Part shown: piece by piece, positions 41,498 through 63,578 of the stretch
Layout of the letters: every line of letters begins with the position of its first letter
Position numbering within the stretch: position 1 is the first letter of the stretch
Origin: Rhizomicrobium sp.
Lineage (GTDB): Bacteria; Pseudomonadota; Alphaproteobacteria; Micropepsales; Micropepsaceae
NCBI GenBank assembly: GCA_037200385.1
Contig: JBBCGL010000001.1
Coordinates: 1,922,001-1,986,000 of the forward strand
Reading direction: 5' to 3'
DNA length: 64,000 nucleotides
Notes under the pieces: generated by a model
Told to the model about the DNA's origin: nothing
The model's database searches: none
What the model saw: the letters and a program-made list of their open reading frames with translations, nothing else
Position numbers and translations under genes: made by a program

Positions 41498-42978
41498 GCG
41501 GCGCATTCCTCGAGCTTCACGTCGTGGCCCCAGAGCCGTTCGACGTGGGCGAGGACGAGCTCCTTGGTCTGATTGTGCAGGGGGATGCCGCGATGCATCG
41601 TGTGGGACAGATACAAAGTTCGGTTGCCTTTGAGGTCGGCGCCGGTGACCTGGATGTTCGGGTCGGCGGCGCCGACGTCGTATTGCCGCGCCAGCATGGC
41701 GCGCACCGCGCGGTAGCCCTTCTCGTCATGGATCGCTGACACCTTATAGGCGCCCGCATCCGCCTTGTCGTAGAGCGCGAAGAGCCGGAAGTCGCGCATC
41801 AGCTTTGGCGAGAGGAACTGCTCGATGAAGCTCTCGTCGCGATAATTCGCCCAGGCGTCCTTCAGCGTGCCCATCCAGTCGCCCTTGCCCGCGAAGTCCG
41901 GGAACCAGTCGCGGTCTTCCGGGGTCGGCGTCTCGCAGATGCGGCGGATGTCCGCCATCATGCCGTAGCCCAGCGCATAGGGATTGAAGCCGCTGTAGCG
42001 GCGATCCGAGAATTCCGGCTGGAACACCACCGAGGTGTGGCTGTGCATGAACTCCAGCCACGAGCCTTCGGTGATCTGGCCGCGATCGTACAGCGTGTTC
42101 ATGATCGTGTAGTGCACGAAGGTGGCGCAGCCCTCGTTCATCACCTTGAGCTGGCGCTGCGGATAGAAATACTGCGCCAGGTTGCGCACGATGCGCAGCG
42201 TCTCGCGCTGCCACGGTCGCAGGCCCGGCGAATTCTTCTCGAGGAAGTAGAGAAGGTTCTCTTCGGGCAGCTTGGCATCGCCGCCGTATTCGTCCTCGGG
42301 GTCCGGCGTCGGCGGCGCTGCCGGCGGCTCGATGCCGGCGGGCAGGGTGCGCCAGAGCTCGCTATAGGCCTCTTCTTCGTATTCGGCGCGGCGGCGGCGC
42401 TTTTCCTGGATGCGTTCGCGCGACGCGCGGGGCGGGCGGCGATAGCGGAACACGCCCTGGTCCATCAGGGCATGGGCGGAGTCGAGCACCGCCTCGACCT
42501 CGTCGCGGCCATAGCGCTCCTCGCAGGCGGCGATGTAGCGCTTGGCGAAGGCGAGATAGTCCATGATCCCCTCGGCATTGGTCCATTGCCGGAAGAGGTA
42601 GTTGTTCTTGAAGAAGTGGTTGTGGCCGAACGCGGCATGCGCCATCACCAGCGCCTGCATGGTCATGCTGTTCTCCTCCAGCAGGTAGGAGATGCACGGG
42701 CTGGAGTTGATGACCACCTCATAGGCCAGCGCGCTGTAGCCGGCGCGGTACATCGCCTCCTCGCGCGCGAACATCTTGCCGAACGACCAGTGATTGTACA
42801 TCAGCGGCATGGCGATGGAGGAATAGGCGTCGAGCATCTGCTCGGACGAGATGATCTCGATCTGATTGGGATAGACGTCGAGCTTGAGGTCGTTCAGCGC
42901 GATGTCCTCGATCGCACGGTAGGTGCGGTCGATGGTGGGAAAGTCCCATTCGGATTCTTCAAACAGAAGGCGGCTCAT
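41494..42978 (-). CDS. spoVR: SpoVR family protein
   Basis: This 494-residue protein is of the SpoVR/YcgB family, named for a Bacillus protein involved in spore cortex formation but also widespread in non-sporulating proteobacteria. It starts MSRLLFEESEWDFPTIDRTYRAIEDIALNDLKLDVYPNQ and has the conserved HAAFGHNHFFKNNYLFRQW and CATFVHYTIMNTLYDRG. With yeaH and prkA it forms a conserved stress-linked cluster. Here the GIY-YIG gene and repeats intervene, overlapping the spoVR start codon by four bases. The biochemical role is not established. Confidence 0.95.
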   Translation of the reverse strand: MSRLLFEESEWDFPTIDRTYRAIEDIALNDLKLDVYPNQIEIISSEQMLDAYSSIAMPLMYNHWSFGKMFAREEAMYRAGYSALAYEVVINSSPCISYLLEENSMTMQALVMAHAAFGHNHFFKNNYLFRQWTNAEGIMDYLAFAKRYIAACEERYGRDEVEAVLDSAHALMDQGVFRYRRPPRASRERIQEKRRRRAEYEEEAYSELWRTLPAGIEPPAAPPTPDPEDEYGGDAKLPEENLLYFLEKNSPGLRPWQRETLRIVRNLAQYFYPQRQLKVMNEGCATFVHYTIMNTLYDRGQITEGSWLEFMHSHTSVVFQPEFSDRRYSGFNPYALGYGMMADIRRICETPTPEDRDWFPDFAGKGDWMGTLKDAWANYRDESFIEQFLSPKLMRDFRLFALYDKADAGAYKVSAIHDEKGYRAVRAMLARQYDVGAADPNIQVTGADLKGNRTLYLSHTMHRGIPLHNQTKELVLAHVERLWGHDVKLEECAA

Positions 42979-43418
42979 GCGGTTTCTCCGCCGTCATCCT
43001 TCGAGGCTCGCTGCGCTCGCACCTCAGGATGACGATTACAACTGCTGGCGCCTGTTTTCGCGTCGCGGGTGCGTTCTCTCAAAAGCGCGTCACCCTGAGG
43101 TGGCCGCGAAGCGGCCCTCGAAGGGCGACGCGCGGCCGGGCGCCTGGCCAGATCGGGCAGCGCGTTCCAATCGCGCCGGATCAGCGCTTCCTTCTTTTCG
43201 CGCCGCCAGCCCTTGATTCGGCGCTCCGCCGCATGCGCCTGCATGAGGTCTTCGTATCGCTCAGACCAAACAAGCGTCACCGGTCGGCGCTTCGACGTGT
43301 AACCCTCGAAGCGACCGTCATCATGCTCGCCGACGCGCACGTCGATCTCGTCATAGGACGTCGAACCGACATAGTAGCTGTCGTCGGAGCAGCGCAGCAT
43401 GTAGCACCGGCCGCCCAT
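42975..43418 (-). CDS. GIY-YIG nuclease family protein with a repeat-encoded tail
   Basis: This 147-residue protein begins with a GIY-YIG domain (about residues 1-92): the two strands as CYML (5-8) and YYVG (16-19), Arg28, His32, and the metal-binding Glu65 in AAERRIKGWRREKKEAL. These are endonuclease fold residues, so it probably cuts DNA or RNA. Residues from 97 onward are translated from two family B palindromes (for example RHPEVRAQRASKDD), so the natural tail may be shorter. ATG 43418 is preferred; TTG 43421 adds one codon. It sits between yeaH and spoVR, overlapping the spoVR start by four bases, in a place where this operon normally has no gene. Confidence 0.85.
   Translation of the reverse strand: MGGRCYMLRCSDDSYYVGSTSYDEIDVRVGEHDDGRFEGYTSKRRPVTLVWSERYEDLMQAHAAERRIKGWRREKKEALIRRDWNALPDLARRPAARRPSRAASRPPQGDALLRERTRDAKTGASSCNRHPEVRAQRASKDDGGETA
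42993..43033 (-). repeat. Family B palindromic repeat, unit B1
   Basis: This 41-base unit reads, on the minus strand, GTCATCCTGAGGTGC at one end and TCGAAGGATGAC at the other, with an internal GC hairpin. It overlaps the last codons of the GIY-YIG gene next to the spoVR start. Related units B2 to B5 are at 43089, 43430, 51283-51370 and 53192-53298. Confidence 0.8.
43089..43129 (+). repeat. Family B palindromic repeat, unit B2
   Basis: This 41-base unit, with ends GTCACCCTGAGGTGG and CTCGAAGGGCGAC, lies within the GIY-YIG coding frame, opposite in orientation to B1 and to B3. The pair B3/B2 flanks the catalytic domain in inverted orientation. Internal GGCCGC-GAAGC-GGCC can form a hairpin. Confidence 0.8.
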
Positions 43419-43429
43419 CAACGGCCCTG

Positions 43430-43470
43430 CGTGCTTCGAGGCACCGCTTCGCGGTGCACCTCAGCATGAC
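43430..43470 (-). repeat. Family B palindromic repeat, unit B3
   Basis: This unit reads GTCATGCTGAGGTGC to CTCGAAGCACG on the minus strand, eleven bases upstream of the GIY-YIG ATG. It is inverted relative to B2, which lies at the other side of the catalytic domain, so the two form a flanking inverted pair. Confidence 0.75.
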
Positions 43471-43500
43471 GAGAGCGGTGGTTGGGGGCAAGCAATGCCA

Positions 43501-60231: not shown

Positions 60232-61941
60232 TCAGCGCAGCGCGTTGGTGTCGACCATGTCGAGCTGCTTGTCGAGGGCCGCGCGCGCCGCCGCGATGGC
60301 GTCGAGGTCCTGGCTCTCGATCACCATGGAGAAGGCATCGAGCCACTGGCCCACCGCCAAACGGACGTCGCCCAGCGATTCCTGGAAGATGCGCTCGGCC
60401 CGCGCGACGACCGCGACGTTCTGCGCCTCGTCGCGCGGATGCACTTTGAGCCTGGCCAGACCCGCCAGCCGCGTCGCGATCTCCTCGCGCGTGAGCACGC
60501 CCGGATTGCCCTCGATCAGCAGGTTGGCGCGCGCCCCGTTGCTGAGCACCGTCACGTCGACGTCGAGCAGGCCGCTGGAGTCGTAGGAGAAGCGCACTTC
60601 GAGCCGCTCCTTGCCCGCCGGCGCGCGCGGCACGTAGCACAGGAGCTCGCCGAGCCGGACATTGTCGCGCACGAAGCGCGCCTCGCCCTGATAAATCGGC
60701 ACCAGCACGCGATCCTGGTTGTCGCTCAGCGTGCTCAGGACATGCGAGCGGCTGGCGGGGATCATCGTGTTGCGCTCGATGATGGGCAGGAACAGGCCCT
60801 GCAGCAGGGCGCCGTTCTCGGTCCGGTTGGAGATCTCGACGCCCAGCGTGAACGGTGCGACGTCGGTGAGGACATGCTCCTCGAGGCCTTTGCCGCCCGC
60901 CAGCAGGCCGGCGCGCACCGCGGCGCCGCGCGCCACCACCTCGTCGGGATTGATGTGCGAGACCGGCAGCTGGCGGAACAGCCGCGCCACCAGCTTGCGG
61001 AACAGCGGCATGCGGGTCGCGCCGCCGGCGAAGACGATGCGGTCGATCTTGTCCGGCGCGATGCGCGCGTCGCGCAGCGCACGCTCCAGCGGCTGGCGCA
61101 CCTTGGCCAGCAGCGGCTCGCCGAGCCGGTCGAAGGCGTCGCGGGTCAGCGTCCAGCTGACGGGCTTGCCCTCATAGTTGAGGGTGAGGGTCGCCTCCTC
61201 CTTCTCGCTCAGCAGGCGCTTGGCGAGCTCGGCCTGGCGGCGCAGCGTCGCGTGCACCGCGAGGCCTTCGGCGAGCGGCGGGATGCCCGCGGCCTTGCCG
61301 GCCTCGGCCAGGAAGGCGGCGACGATGGCGTCGGTGAAATCCTCGCCGCCCAGCCAGATGTCGCCGGCGGTCGCCTTGACCTCCATGATGCCTTCGAAGG
61401 AATGCAGCAGCGAGATGTCGAGCGTGCCGCCGCCCAGGTCGATCACCAGCACGGTGCTCTCGTCCTCGCCGAGCGTGAAGCCGTAGGCGAGCGCCGCGGC
61501 GGTCGGCTCGGTGAGGAGGCGGTCGACTTTCAGGCCGGCGAGCTGCGCCGCCGCCTTGGTCGCCTTGCGCTGGGCGTCGTTGAAATAGGCGGGGACGGTG
61601 ACGACGGCCTCGGTGACGGGTTCGCCGAGGAAGGCCTCGGCATCGGATTTGAGGGCGCGCAGCACCAGGGCCGAAAGCTCGTCGGCACGATAGGTCTTCT
61701 TGCCGACGGGGATGGCGCGGTCGGTGCCCATGTAGCGCTTGAAGAACGCGGCGGCGGAGCCGGGATGGCTGACCATGCGGTCGCGCGCCGGCTGGCCGAC
61801 GAGGATGTTGCCGCCGTCGTCGGCCGCGACGACGGATGGGGTCAGGTATTGCCCGAGCGCATTGGGGATGAGGGTTGCTTCACCCTCCCGCCAGACGCCG
61901 ATCAGGCTGTTGGTGGTGCCGAGGTCTATGCCGACGATCAT
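60232..61941 (-). CDS. hscC: HscC-like Hsp70 chaperone
   Basis: This 569-residue protein is an Hsp70 of the HscC type, shorter than DnaK (about 640) and lacking most of the lid tail. It starts IVGIDLGTTNSLIGVWREGEATLIPNALGQYLTPSVV, has the phosphate loops VIDLGGGTLDISLL and VFAGGATRMPLFR, and the substrate domain with VEISNRTENGALLQGLFLPIIERNTMIPASR. HscC works with atypical J-proteins DjlB/DjlC; the next gene encodes such a partner. The clients are unknown. The neighbouring GIY-YIG element lies just upstream, so its promoter region may be disrupted by the insertion. Confidence 0.93.
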   Translation of the reverse strand: MIVGIDLGTTNSLIGVWREGEATLIPNALGQYLTPSVVAADDGGNILVGQPARDRMVSHPGSAAAFFKRYMGTDRAIPVGKKTYRADELSALVLRALKSDAEAFLGEPVTEAVVTVPAYFNDAQRKATKAAAQLAGLKVDRLLTEPTAAALAYGFTLGEDESTVLVIDLGGGTLDISLLHSFEGIMEVKATAGDIWLGGEDFTDAIVAAFLAEAGKAAGIPPLAEGLAVHATLRRQAELAKRLLSEKEEATLTLNYEGKPVSWTLTRDAFDRLGEPLLAKVRQPLERALRDARIAPDKIDRIVFAGGATRMPLFRKLVARLFRQLPVSHINPDEVVARGAAVRAGLLAGGKGLEEHVLTDVAPFTLGVEISNRTENGALLQGLFLPIIERNTMIPASRSHVLSTLSDNQDRVLVPIYQGEARFVRDNVRLGELLCYVPRAPAGKERLEVRFSYDSSGLLDVDVTVLSNGARANLLIEGNPGVLTREEIATRLAGLARLKVHPRDEAQNVAVVARAERIFQESLGDVRLAVGQWLDAFSMVIESQDLDAIAAARAALDKQLDMVDTNALR

Positions 61942-62099
61942 GATGGTCGCGAGGATGGCACGGAATGCGAGCGGGCGAAAACCTGCGATTGGTCACAGGA
62001 TTGCGACGGCGTCGTGCGCCAACAGGCTCTCGGTCACTTTTTGAGTTCAAAGGCGATGCAGGTATATTTTCCGAGCGGGGCTACCCCTCCACCTCAAAT

Positions 62100-62135
62100 T
62101 GTCATGGCCCGCGAATGCGGGCCACCCAGGTGACG
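62100..62135 (+). repeat. Family C palindrome, left flank of GIY-YIG gene
   Basis: This 36-base repeat is perfectly inverted at 62486-62521. It contains an internal hairpin, GGCCCGC-GAAT-GCGGGCC. It also holds an in-frame ATG (62115) and AGGTGA (62128-62133), eight bases before the GTG start of the GIY-YIG gene, so the repeat could supply its translation signals. Confidence 0.9.
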
Positions 62136-62141
62136 GCCGCT

Positions 62142-62432
62142 GTGTCGAAGACTTACTACGTCTATATTCTTGCGAGTAAGCGTAACGGCACGCTCTATAT
62201 CGGCGTCACCAACGATCTTGCTCGGCGCGTTTGGGAACATAAGCAGGGCTTGGTCGAAGGGTTTACGAAGAAGCATCACGTGACGACGTTGGTCTACTAT
62301 GAGGTCTTCGATGACATCGGCTTCGCTATCGCACGCGAGACGCGATTGAAGAAATACAAACGCGAATGGAAGATCAATTTGATCCAGGTACGGAATGTCG
62401 AATGGGAGGATTTATATGAGACGCTGTCCTGA
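62142..62432 (+). CDS. GIY-YIG nuclease family protein between inverted repeats
   Basis: This 96-residue protein is a minimal GIY-YIG nuclease of the COG2827 type. It reads VYIL (7-10) and LYIG (18-21), with the catalytic Arg28/29 and His33 in ARRVWEHKQG and the metal-binding Glu66 in ARETRLKKYKREWK. It would cut DNA with one divalent metal ion, target unknown. GTG 62142 is favoured, with AGGTGA eight bases before it; ATG 62115 within the repeat adds nine residues. It is flanked by perfect 36-base inverted repeats and inserted between hscC and argF. Such single-domain GIY-YIG proteins are frequent in bacteria with no known role. Confidence 0.9.
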   Translation: MSKTYYVYILASKRNGTLYIGVTNDLARRVWEHKQGLVEGFTKKHHVTTLVYYEVFDDIGFAIARETRLKKYKREWKINLIQVRNVEWEDLYETLS

Positions 62433-62627
62433 TCCTTGATGCTGGGCCAACCAGTTGGTGATCAATTCCTTCGACAGCTCGGCGGCGTCACCTGGGTGGC
62501 CCGCATTCGCGGGCCATGACACCGAAGGATTGGGGCTCGGAGCTCGAATTTTCATTGCCGTCGCTTTCCAGCACGCCGTTTCAGGCCGCGATAGGGCTTT
62601 CGGTCGATTGGCCGACACCCGATTTTG
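62433..62627. other. Gap between GIY-YIG gene and argF, with right repeat
   Basis: This 195-base gap holds the right inverted repeat (62486-62521). The remaining sequence shows no tRNA and no strong hairpin apart from the repeat. A minus-strand frame (ending AAELSKELITNWLAQHQ) is protein-like for about 20 residues, which might be a relic of a lost gene, but has no start signal. Confidence 0.4.
62486..62521 (-). repeat. Family C palindrome, right flank of GIY-YIG gene
   Basis: The inverse of 62100-62135 with all 36 bases complementary, 53 bases after the GIY-YIG stop. The complete identity of the two copies indicates that they arose together or are kept identical by conversion. Confidence 0.9.
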
Positions 62628-63578
62628 CTACCCCAGCGCCCACACCAGCACGGCCTTCTGCGCGTGCAGGCGGTTCTCCGCTTCGTCGAACACGACCGAG
62701 TGCGGGCCGTCCAGGACCTCGTCCGTCACCTCTTCGCCGCGATGCGCCGGCAGGCAGTGCATGAAGATCGCGTCCTTCGCGGCATGTGCCATCAGCCGCT
62801 CGTTCGCCTGATAGGGCTTGAGCAGGTTGTGGCGCTGGCGCGTCGTGTCCTCGTCGCCCATCGAGACCCAGGTGTCGGCGATCACGCAGTCCGCGCCGTC
62901 CAGCGCCGCCTCGGGGTCGCTCATGAACTGCACCTTGGCGCCGGCGGCCTCGGCCCATTGGCGCAGGCTCTCGCGCGGCGCCAGCTCTTTCGGCGTCGCG
63001 ATGCGGAAGGTGAAGCCCAGCGTCGCCGCGGCATGCACCCAGCTCGCCTGGACGTTGTTGGAGTCGCCGGTCCACGCGATCGTGCGGCCCTGGATCGGAC
63101 CGCGATGCTCCTCGAAGGTCATGATGTCGGCGAGCACCTGGCAGGGATGGCTGAGCTTGGTCATGCCGTTGATCACCGGCACGGTCGAGTTGTCGGCCAG
63201 CTCGTGCAGCATGTCCTGGTCGAGGGTGCGGATCATCACCGCGTCGACATAGCGCGACAGCACGCGCGCCGTGTCGGCCATGGTCTCGCCGCGGCCGAGC
63301 TGCATCTCGGCGCCGGTCAGCATGAGCGTCTTGCCGCCGAGCTGCTGCATGCCGACATCGAAGGAGATGCGGGTGCGGGTGGACGGCTTGTCGAAGATCA
63401 GCGCCAGCATCCGGCCGGCGAGCGGACGGTCGGCATCCTCCACGCCCTTGGGCAGATGGGCGCGCGCGTCCTTGCGCCGGCGGGCGTCGGCGATCAGCGC
63501 CGTCAGCGTCGCGGCGTCGAAATCGCTGAGGTCGAGGAAATGCTTCACCGTCCCGACCCGTCCCGTTGGCGCGTTCAT
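62628..63578 (-). CDS. argF: Ornithine carbamoyltransferase
   Basis: This 316-residue protein is ArgF, which makes citrulline from ornithine and carbamoyl phosphate. The carbamoyl phosphate loop STRTR is at residues 66-70 ([13 protein letters not shown]), the ornithine site includes DTWVSMGDE, and the [11 protein letters not shown] motif near the C-terminus carries the active-site Cys. It overlaps the argD stop by four bases (ATGA). The last residues run up to the gap with the repeat, where in related genomes hslO would follow. The enzyme has the normal length for this family. Confidence 0.97.

Follow-up and report, generated by a model that had tools for sequence, protein, structure and literature searches.

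The unit and its surroundings

The window (the whole 64-kb stretch of Rhizomicrobium sp. DNA that was analysed) carries a compact unit made up of one small gene for a predicted GIY-YIG nuclease and two palindromes, together with a second GIY-YIG gene of another lineage (Table 1). An earlier note on this DNA had described a GIY-YIG gene between perfect inverted 36-bp repeats, each with a hairpin of its own, and both parts of this description were borne out. The 36-nt arms are 100% complementary and are separated by 350 nt, and the 96 codons enclosed by them encode a protein that matches the Pfam GIY-YIG family (PF01541) at 59.8 bits, against a cut-off of 22.6. Folded singly as single-stranded DNA, the two arms give -13.1 and -12.7 kcal/mol (z -3.6 and -4.3); in the fold of the isolated 36-mer, GTCA is able to pair with TGAC of the tail. 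The letters also confirm that the left copy contributes AGGTGA ahead of the start codon and an in-frame ATG (at 62115), and the left REP probably supplies the ribosome-binding site of the nuclease gene. The full identity of the two flanks had been taken as a sign of recent origin or active maintenance; identity alone does not show recency.

Table 1. Positions of the GIY-YIG genes and associated palindromes in the window.
Feature	Position	Strand	Remarks
Second GIY-YIG gene, other lineage	42975..43418	-	Frame continues through a REP-like palindrome at the C-terminus
REP-like palindrome, 3' end of second GIY-YIG gene	42992..43034	-	CGTCATCCTGAGG...CCTCGAAGGATGACG
REP-like palindrome upstream of second GIY-YIG gene	43430..43471	-	CGTCATGCTGAGGTGC...
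Whole unit (left REP, GIY-YIG gene, right REP)	62100..62521	+	About 420 bp; ends TGTC...GACA
Left REP, CGTC type	62100..62135	+	TGTC tag outward; 8-bp stem TGGCCCGC/GCGGGCCA; loop GAAT; tail CCCAGGTGACG
AGGTGA, probable ribosome-binding site	62128..62133	+	Inside left REP, 8 bases before GTG
Minimal Slx1-like GIY-YIG nuclease gene	62142..62432	+	96 aa; GTG start, TGA stop
Right REP	62486..62521	-	Identical to left REP, inverted, tag outward

The unit is intergenic, and the nuclease gene is surrounded by neither an intron nor an intein. No Rfam match was obtained for the region 61500-63000 (E up to 1), and the sole NCBIfam match was a sub-threshold one to an intron-endonuclease. An hscC-like chaperone gene (60232-61941) lies beside the unit, which had been described as inserted between hscC and argF. 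Counterparts of argF and hslO are near each other in four relatives. A tblastn search (E up to 1e-5) found no hscC in 20 relative loci, including the four that contain argF and hslO. The hscC-like gene is perhaps a separate insertion.

The palindromes as members of a CGTC-type REP family

CGTC REPs have been described as multi-copy sequences, mostly head-to-head dimers, with an unpaired and terminal tag CGTC (often TGTC), a stem of 8-9 bp, a loop of 4-5 bases and a CCA tail (Di Nocera et al., 2013, PMC3733652). In that survey, the class includes dRS3 of Neisseria and RPE-6 and RPE-4 of Rickettsia, and occurs in every alphaproteobacterial order and also elsewhere; a dedicated transposase is 'apparently' absent, and RAYT or IS200 transposases flanked by CGTC REPs were not found (PMC3733652). 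Both arms of the window unit have the tag TGTC, an 8-bp stem, the loop GAAT and a CCCA tail, with A/C in place of the outermost A-T pair that is usual in CGTC REPs.

Within the 64-kb window, the 13-base head matches exactly only in the two arms of the unit, and five matches with up to two mismatches compare with 4.3 expected by chance. The picture is different in the whole genome (a single contig of 5.0 Mb), where the 25-nt head TGTCATGGCCCGCGAATGCGGGCCA has 78 copies at up to three mismatches, 33 of them exact, on both strands (40 plus and 38 minus), against 0 matches for the reversed pattern. This recurrence makes the repeat a REP family, with members far beyond the unit. The earlier note had overlooked that its palindromes are REPs of the already-known CGTC type and that the arrangement is widespread.

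Neighbouring copies less than 600 bp apart form 23 pairs, all 23 in plus-minus orientation with the tags outward. Their starts are 98-109 bp apart in 18 pairs and 73-77 bp apart in three; the remaining two are the unit itself (397 bp) and a lone palindrome that was counted once on each strand. Short outward pairs (REPINs, roughly 100-135 bp) hold 42 of the 78 copies, and gene-less pairs often have an inner CCCAGGTGA in common with the unit, besides the palindrome. One locus (L031) consists of one symmetrical palindrome, TGTCAT...ATGACA. At two places in the genome (L008/L009, about 189.6 kb, and L033/L034, 3541 kb, on G000:C1), the same REP pair recurs, with its spacer and outer flanks, in opposite orientation; these pairs belong to a larger duplication. 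Repeats without GIY-YIG genes had been named in advance as evidence against a mobile unit, and, taken literally, they are what this genome contains, as the majority of the 78 copies have no such gene next to them. However, many of them form pairs that resemble non-autonomous REPINs with the same ends, as known from REP/RAYT systems, and the link to GIY-YIG genes is both strong and specific to the REP type, as set out below.

REPs on both sides of nuclease genes in other bacteria

A scan of named genomes gave at least 576 confirmed relatives of the nuclease gene, of which 80 were kept; these come from alphaproteobacteria and from records titled as many other phyla, mostly metagenome bins, and the matches outside the host phylum may be misassigned. 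The flanks were searched with a strict REP motif (GTC, stem, loop, stem, CCA) in 75 usable loci, five having been dropped for short flanks. Among these listed relatives, strict REPs with tags outward lie on both sides of the gene in 45/75 loci and on at least one side in 62/75, the two-sided test being failed by 30. The corresponding two-sided counts are 4 at 1391 shifted positions in the same loci, 0/75 with the reversed motif and 4/75 with tags inward. Grouped by record title, two-sided flanking is found in 18/26 of the listed loci outside Pseudomonadota and Deltaproteobacteria, in 5/5 from Deltaproteobacteria (Desulfobacteraceae and Smithella included), in one of two from Shewanella and in 21/42 of the rest. 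A measure of inverted similarity between the flanks gave scores of at least 16 in 41/75 listed loci versus 21/368 swapped pairs.

A second set, for which the phylum search supplied its 29 other top-scoring genomes and which has no gene in common with the set of 80, has strict REPs on both sides in 11/29 loci and on at least one side in 18/29; at 224 shifted positions the counts are 0 and 9. Eleven loci of this set without the strict motif were inspected by eye: longer REPs clearly enclose the gene in six, the orientation of the REPs is mixed in one, and the other four have REPs on one side only or none. Among named examples, strict CGTC REPs flank the gene on both sides in Rhizobium, Shinella and Azospirillum, and dRS3-like repeats in mixed orientation do so in N. 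gonorrhoeae. Related palindromes missed by the strict motif are visible by eye in the Sinorhizobium and Sphingobium flanks, and one R. tumorigenes locus shows, by eye, a palindrome downstream only.

Matching of nuclease and palindrome type

The genome of the window has seven GIY-YIG domain matches, three of which belong to the subgroup of the window gene. Each of these three lies between outward REPs of a different type, and the three types have 78, 91 and 9 copies in the genome, counted under differing search criteria; the strict motif is passed only by the REPs of the window unit. This one-to-one pairing was examined further in 12 genomes (of 16) with at least three such genes, comprising 42 units (39 of the 40 fetched plus the three of the window genome). 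The downstream flank that best matches a given upstream flank is its own in 36/42 units, where 12 are expected, and the observed sum was reached in 0/20000 permutations. These two results exclude the idea that the gene simply tends to lie close to any REP.

At the level of whole genomes, the GIY-YIG gene is present in 81/299 members of the phylum (E up to 1e-15). With a generic REP pattern whose reversed control gave 0 in all rows, and which misses many stem types (only two matches in the window genome), two or more REPs were found in 40/81 genomes with the gene versus 19/218 without it (OR 10.2, p 1e-13), a value reached in 0/5000 shuffles within families. Fewer than two generic matches were found in 41 of the 81 genomes with the gene, and 14 genomes have at least five generic REPs and no GIY-YIG match at E 1e-15, including G243 (158) and G344 (79). 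Such REP-rich genomes may reflect remnants, missing contigs or another mobiliser. The Y1_Tnp domain of the RAYT family was found in 139/299 genomes, with an OR of 1.75 for association with REPs (p 0.06); by class, the counts are 8/18 against 19/95 in the host class (p 0.036) and 26/121 against 6/65 in the other classes (p 0.041). No match to Y1_Tnp (PF01797) was obtained in the window genome at E 0.001.

The nuclease family

The predicted nuclease consists of a single GIY-YIG domain with the conserved Tyr, Tyr, Arg and Glu, and has no auxiliary domain. In an alignment of 29 sequences, Y8, Y19, R29 and H33 are invariant and E66 is at least 90% conserved; the subgroup has a conserved C-terminal block, WK..LI...N..W.DL. 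Between copies at different sites, dN/dS is 0.08-0.16 in five comparisons with dS of 0.9-1.5 (the ratio was computable for 12 of 17 comparisons, and dS was saturated in most others), and by this measure the GIY-YIG gene is under purifying selection. Minimal single-domain GIY-YIG proteins of the prokaryotic UPF0213 family, which are Slx1-like, are similar in build (PDB 1ywl and 1zg2, E about 2e-4); the window protein differs from them in belonging to a distinct subgroup with the C-terminal block and REP flanks. The records examined annotate small GIY-YIG relatives with the domain only or as an excinuclease subunit, or leave them without annotation, and the proposed partnership with REPs gives this protein family a probable role.

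One of the remaining GIY-YIG genes of the window genome (L003), which we take to be YhbQ-like, has no strict REP motif nearby. Another locus (L007, G000:C1:912111-915278) holds a GIY-YIG fragment without the full domain, with a REP pair of the window type about 1.1 kb away. Phage records gave 13 weak matches, each of less than 60% identity. In plasmid p1 of Planktothrix agardhii (L235), a GIY-YIG gene has the type IIL restriction enzyme MmeI on one side and, on the other, drmA of a DISARM system.

Presence, absence and possible remnants at orthologous sites

Some part of the query is matched in 59/60 genomes of the window genus. The units of the genus are at different places among relatives, and at least two genomes (G028 and G029) have two units. 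Of the 17 genus units fetched, 14 have a strict REP on at least one side, 12 of them on both. A comparison of empty sites had been proposed in the earlier note: three of the four relatives whose fetched stretch contains argF and hslO have no unit between these genes, and the fourth (G029) has a unit next to hslO instead.

In Azospirillum lipoferum 4B, the gene stands between sufB and sufC and is bordered left and right by an outward REP pair (sufB-[REPIN-gene-REPIN]-sufC), and in 11/12 Azospirillum records sufB and sufC are both present without it, judged by match length. No strict REP was found at the sufB-sufC junction in four inspected Azospirillum records, of which B510 has another short inverted repeat. 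The empty sites in plasmid neighbourhoods of Rhizobium and Shinella are less exact than those in Azospirillum.

A Bradyrhizobium site was searched in 146 genomes, and 20 regions were fetched. The unit is complete at this orthologous site in some genomes and partly decayed in others; its interior is inverted in G068, it is absent from G134, and one symmetrical palindrome stands in its place in G131, with the same flanks, and in G138 and G199, with diverged flanks. Such a solo palindrome would be the expected remnant of a loss between palindromic ends, comparable to a solo LTR; alternatively, the palindrome could be older than the unit at the site. By eye, no target-site duplication was seen at the Azospirillum and Bradyrhizobium sites, where the flanks have diverged. 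In one Bradyrhizobium genome (L220, G168:C1:4968190-4970160), a decayed unit precedes a complete one, after which part of the flank is repeated, as if the flank had been duplicated together with the unit. At four other Bradyrhizobium loci (L213, L223, L224 and L225), another repeat (GGATGGGTAGAGCG...AAACCCATC and similar) is found at the intergenic site of the unit; because another repeat occupies it in other species, this site may be a hot spot.

The earlier suggestion that a GIY-YIG nuclease takes the place of a transposase in a small mobile unit is thus supported by the different sites and by the empty, solo and inverted states, from which we infer mobility itself.

A G/T-rich outward flank

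The REPs of the window genome are bordered on the outside by a short G/T-rich tract: in 28 REPs (the exact copies fetched minus two in the larger duplication, the same data on which the signature was found), the outward positions 3-12 are G or T in 216/280 cases (77%), compared with 48% in the next ten bases and 49-51% past position 50. In three other sets, two of which overlap because the set of 80 relatives contains six of the 17 genus units, the counts are 671/1110, 174/290 and 182/260, with 46-51% in the next ten bases. Split by record, the set of 80 gives a strong signal in proteobacterial records (376/570) and a weak one in the others, Deltaproteobacteria included (295/540, p 0.03). The case for a G/T flank across phyla is weakened by this low count in the non-proteobacterial loci.

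The insertion sites differ from one another and share a composition but no long common sequence. Since the gene-less pairs of the window genome and the unit have the same G/T signature, a single insertion process is suggested. As a possible alternative reading, a REP followed by a G/T-rich (T-rich) tract is terminator-like.

A second GIY-YIG lineage

The second GIY-YIG gene of the window, which belongs to another lineage, sits among palindromes of the forms CGTCATCCTGAGG...CCTCGAAGGATGACG and CGTCATCCTGAGG...TCGAAGGATGACG. A set of 30 loci of this lineage, including the window copy, was assembled, 27 of which were usable and three too short. Inverted flanking repeats score at least 16 in 13/27 loci versus 12/123 swapped pairs, and many of these repeats take the form CCTCATCCTGAGC...GTCGAAGGATGAGG. 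The window copy itself has a flank score of only 11, and the CGTC motif occurs in 1/27 loci only, on one side. The partnership may therefore not be confined to a single lineage, another REP superfamily being involved here.

Proposed explanation

These comparisons of sequence point to the minimal Slx1-like GIY-YIG nuclease as, almost certainly, the dedicated partner gene of CGTC REPs. The strength of this reading, which the weakened G/T signal leaves as it was, rests mainly on the two-sided flanking, the co-occurrence of GIY-YIG genes with REPs and the matching of types. It is also likely that the nuclease drives the spread of its REPs, and the unit probably belongs, as an autonomous member, to a widespread class of mobile elements of very small size. 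On balance, we lean towards the broader proposal of a new class of transposable element, distributed across phyla, in which a stand-alone GIY-YIG nuclease without a transposase would recognise and spread its own palindrome; such a class would answer the question of what moves CGTC REPs, those of the Neisseria dRS3 kind included, and would comprise two or more GIY-YIG lineages, every one of them tied to a REP superfamily of its own.

In this proposal, the ends of the unit would be the CGTC REPs with their tags outward, and the nuclease encoded by the sole gene would act on its own REP type. The gene-less REPINs would be non-autonomous relatives with the same ends, mobilised in trans, and the single symmetrical palindromes would be remnants after loss of the interior. 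GIY-YIG enzymes cut by hydrolysis and, unlike RAYT, are not known to rejoin the strands, and the joining would therefore fall to host enzymes. The chemistry can be outlined tentatively and may well differ in detail: the nuclease would recognise the REP hairpin or cruciform and nick near the tag, after which the strand, once excised or exposed, might be copied or pasted into G/T-rich sites by host replication and repair. Recognition of the nuclease's own hairpin or cruciform is suggested because the pairing is type-specific; it is the later steps that we infer.

Each component was known before, namely REPs, RAYTs and small GIY-YIG proteins. New here is the partner gene proposed for CGTC REPs; among the matches listed from open-access papers, no earlier account connecting CGTC REPs to GIY-YIG genes was found. 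A partner gene is thereby named for a REP class that was thought to be without a dedicated transposase, and a testable rule of one nuclease and one palindrome follows. Were nuclease-dependent movement to be shown, the unit would count as a new class of element. The comparisons also suggest that DNA may be mobilised by an enzyme whose fold, to our knowledge, is not used by known transposases.

Alternative explanations

The strongest alternative, though an unlikely one, is a homing-like process, in which the nuclease would cut REP-free G/T-rich targets and repair would copy the element in, the REPs serving as repair tracts or expression signals. GIY-YIG is a classic fold of homing nucleases (PMC1564403), and the short, target-like G/T-rich flank as well as the lack of a visible target-site duplication would suit such a process. 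However, the insertion sites differ and are alike in composition and not in long sequence, and the type specificity of the REPs, together with the many gene-less REPINs that have these ends, suggests that it is the ends that are recognised. GIY-YIG homing endonucleases of the I-TevI type resemble the window unit in their fold and in a probable selfish spread; unlike them, the unit has no intron or intein and is bounded by its own palindromes, and its protein, at 96 aa, is too short to include the C-terminal NUMOD domains found in that group.

Rather less probable is a domesticated housekeeping nuclease that trims or resolves REP cruciforms and does not move REPs, the flanking copies being kept for expression control. 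SbcCD and Slx1 act likewise on other structures, and the Slx1-like, minimal character of the family, the probable ribosome-binding site carried by the left REP and the purifying selection on the gene would all be expected of such a nuclease. Against this, the gene is patchy (81/299 genomes) and often multi-copy, it is found at different places in sister species and is absent at orthologous sites, and a REP is present downstream of it as well; a separate REP type for each paralogue would also be needless for one cruciform nuclease.

It is very improbable that RAYT or other Y1 (HUH) transposases spread these REPs with the GIY-YIG gene as a passenger. The REP/RAYT systems provide a precedent (PMC3733652), and the weak associations between Y1_Tnp and REPs (p 0.036 for the host class, p 0.041 for the other classes) stay as a residue. 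A Y1 transposase as the main mobiliser was nevertheless rejected, as PF01797 is unmatched in the window genome and the OR of 1.75 stands against 10.2 for GIY-YIG; CGTC REPs around RAYT or IS200 transposases were, moreover, not found in the 2013 survey (PMC3733652). Coincidence, whereby a small gene would often fall between two REPs simply because REPs are common between genes, as they are in the window genome, has a negligible probability and is refuted by the shifted-position controls (4/1391, and 0/224 for the second set) and by the type matching within genomes.

Comparison with known systems

The arrangement preferred here, a nuclease paired with its own REPs, is most like that of the REP/RAYT (TnpA-REP) REPtrons, in which inverted recurring REPs likewise bracket a gene, pairing is type-specific and gene-less REP pairs act as non-autonomous forms. 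In contrast to these, the enzyme is of the GIY-YIG family, unrelated to HUH/Y1 transposases and in a genome without a Y1_Tnp match, and the tag is TGTC (CGTC class) instead of the GTAG of REPtrons. Because enzyme and tag differ, the window unit falls outside the REP/RAYT group, though it appears to work alike. The REPs themselves agree with CGTC REPs in the TGTC/CGTC tag, 8-bp stem, 4-nt loop, CCA tail and outward dimers; the difference from the class as published, for which no transposase gene is reported (PMC3733652), is the partner gene proposed here. Pairs of MITEs and insertion sequences offer another parallel, an autonomous unit accompanied by short gene-less derivatives with the same ends; unlike in those pairs, there is no transposase, the ends are self-complementary hairpins and no target duplication was seen. 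Presence and absence at orthologous sites, a mark of transposable elements in general, are found both at the sufB-sufC junction, occupied in one of 12 Azospirillum records, and at the Bradyrhizobium site.
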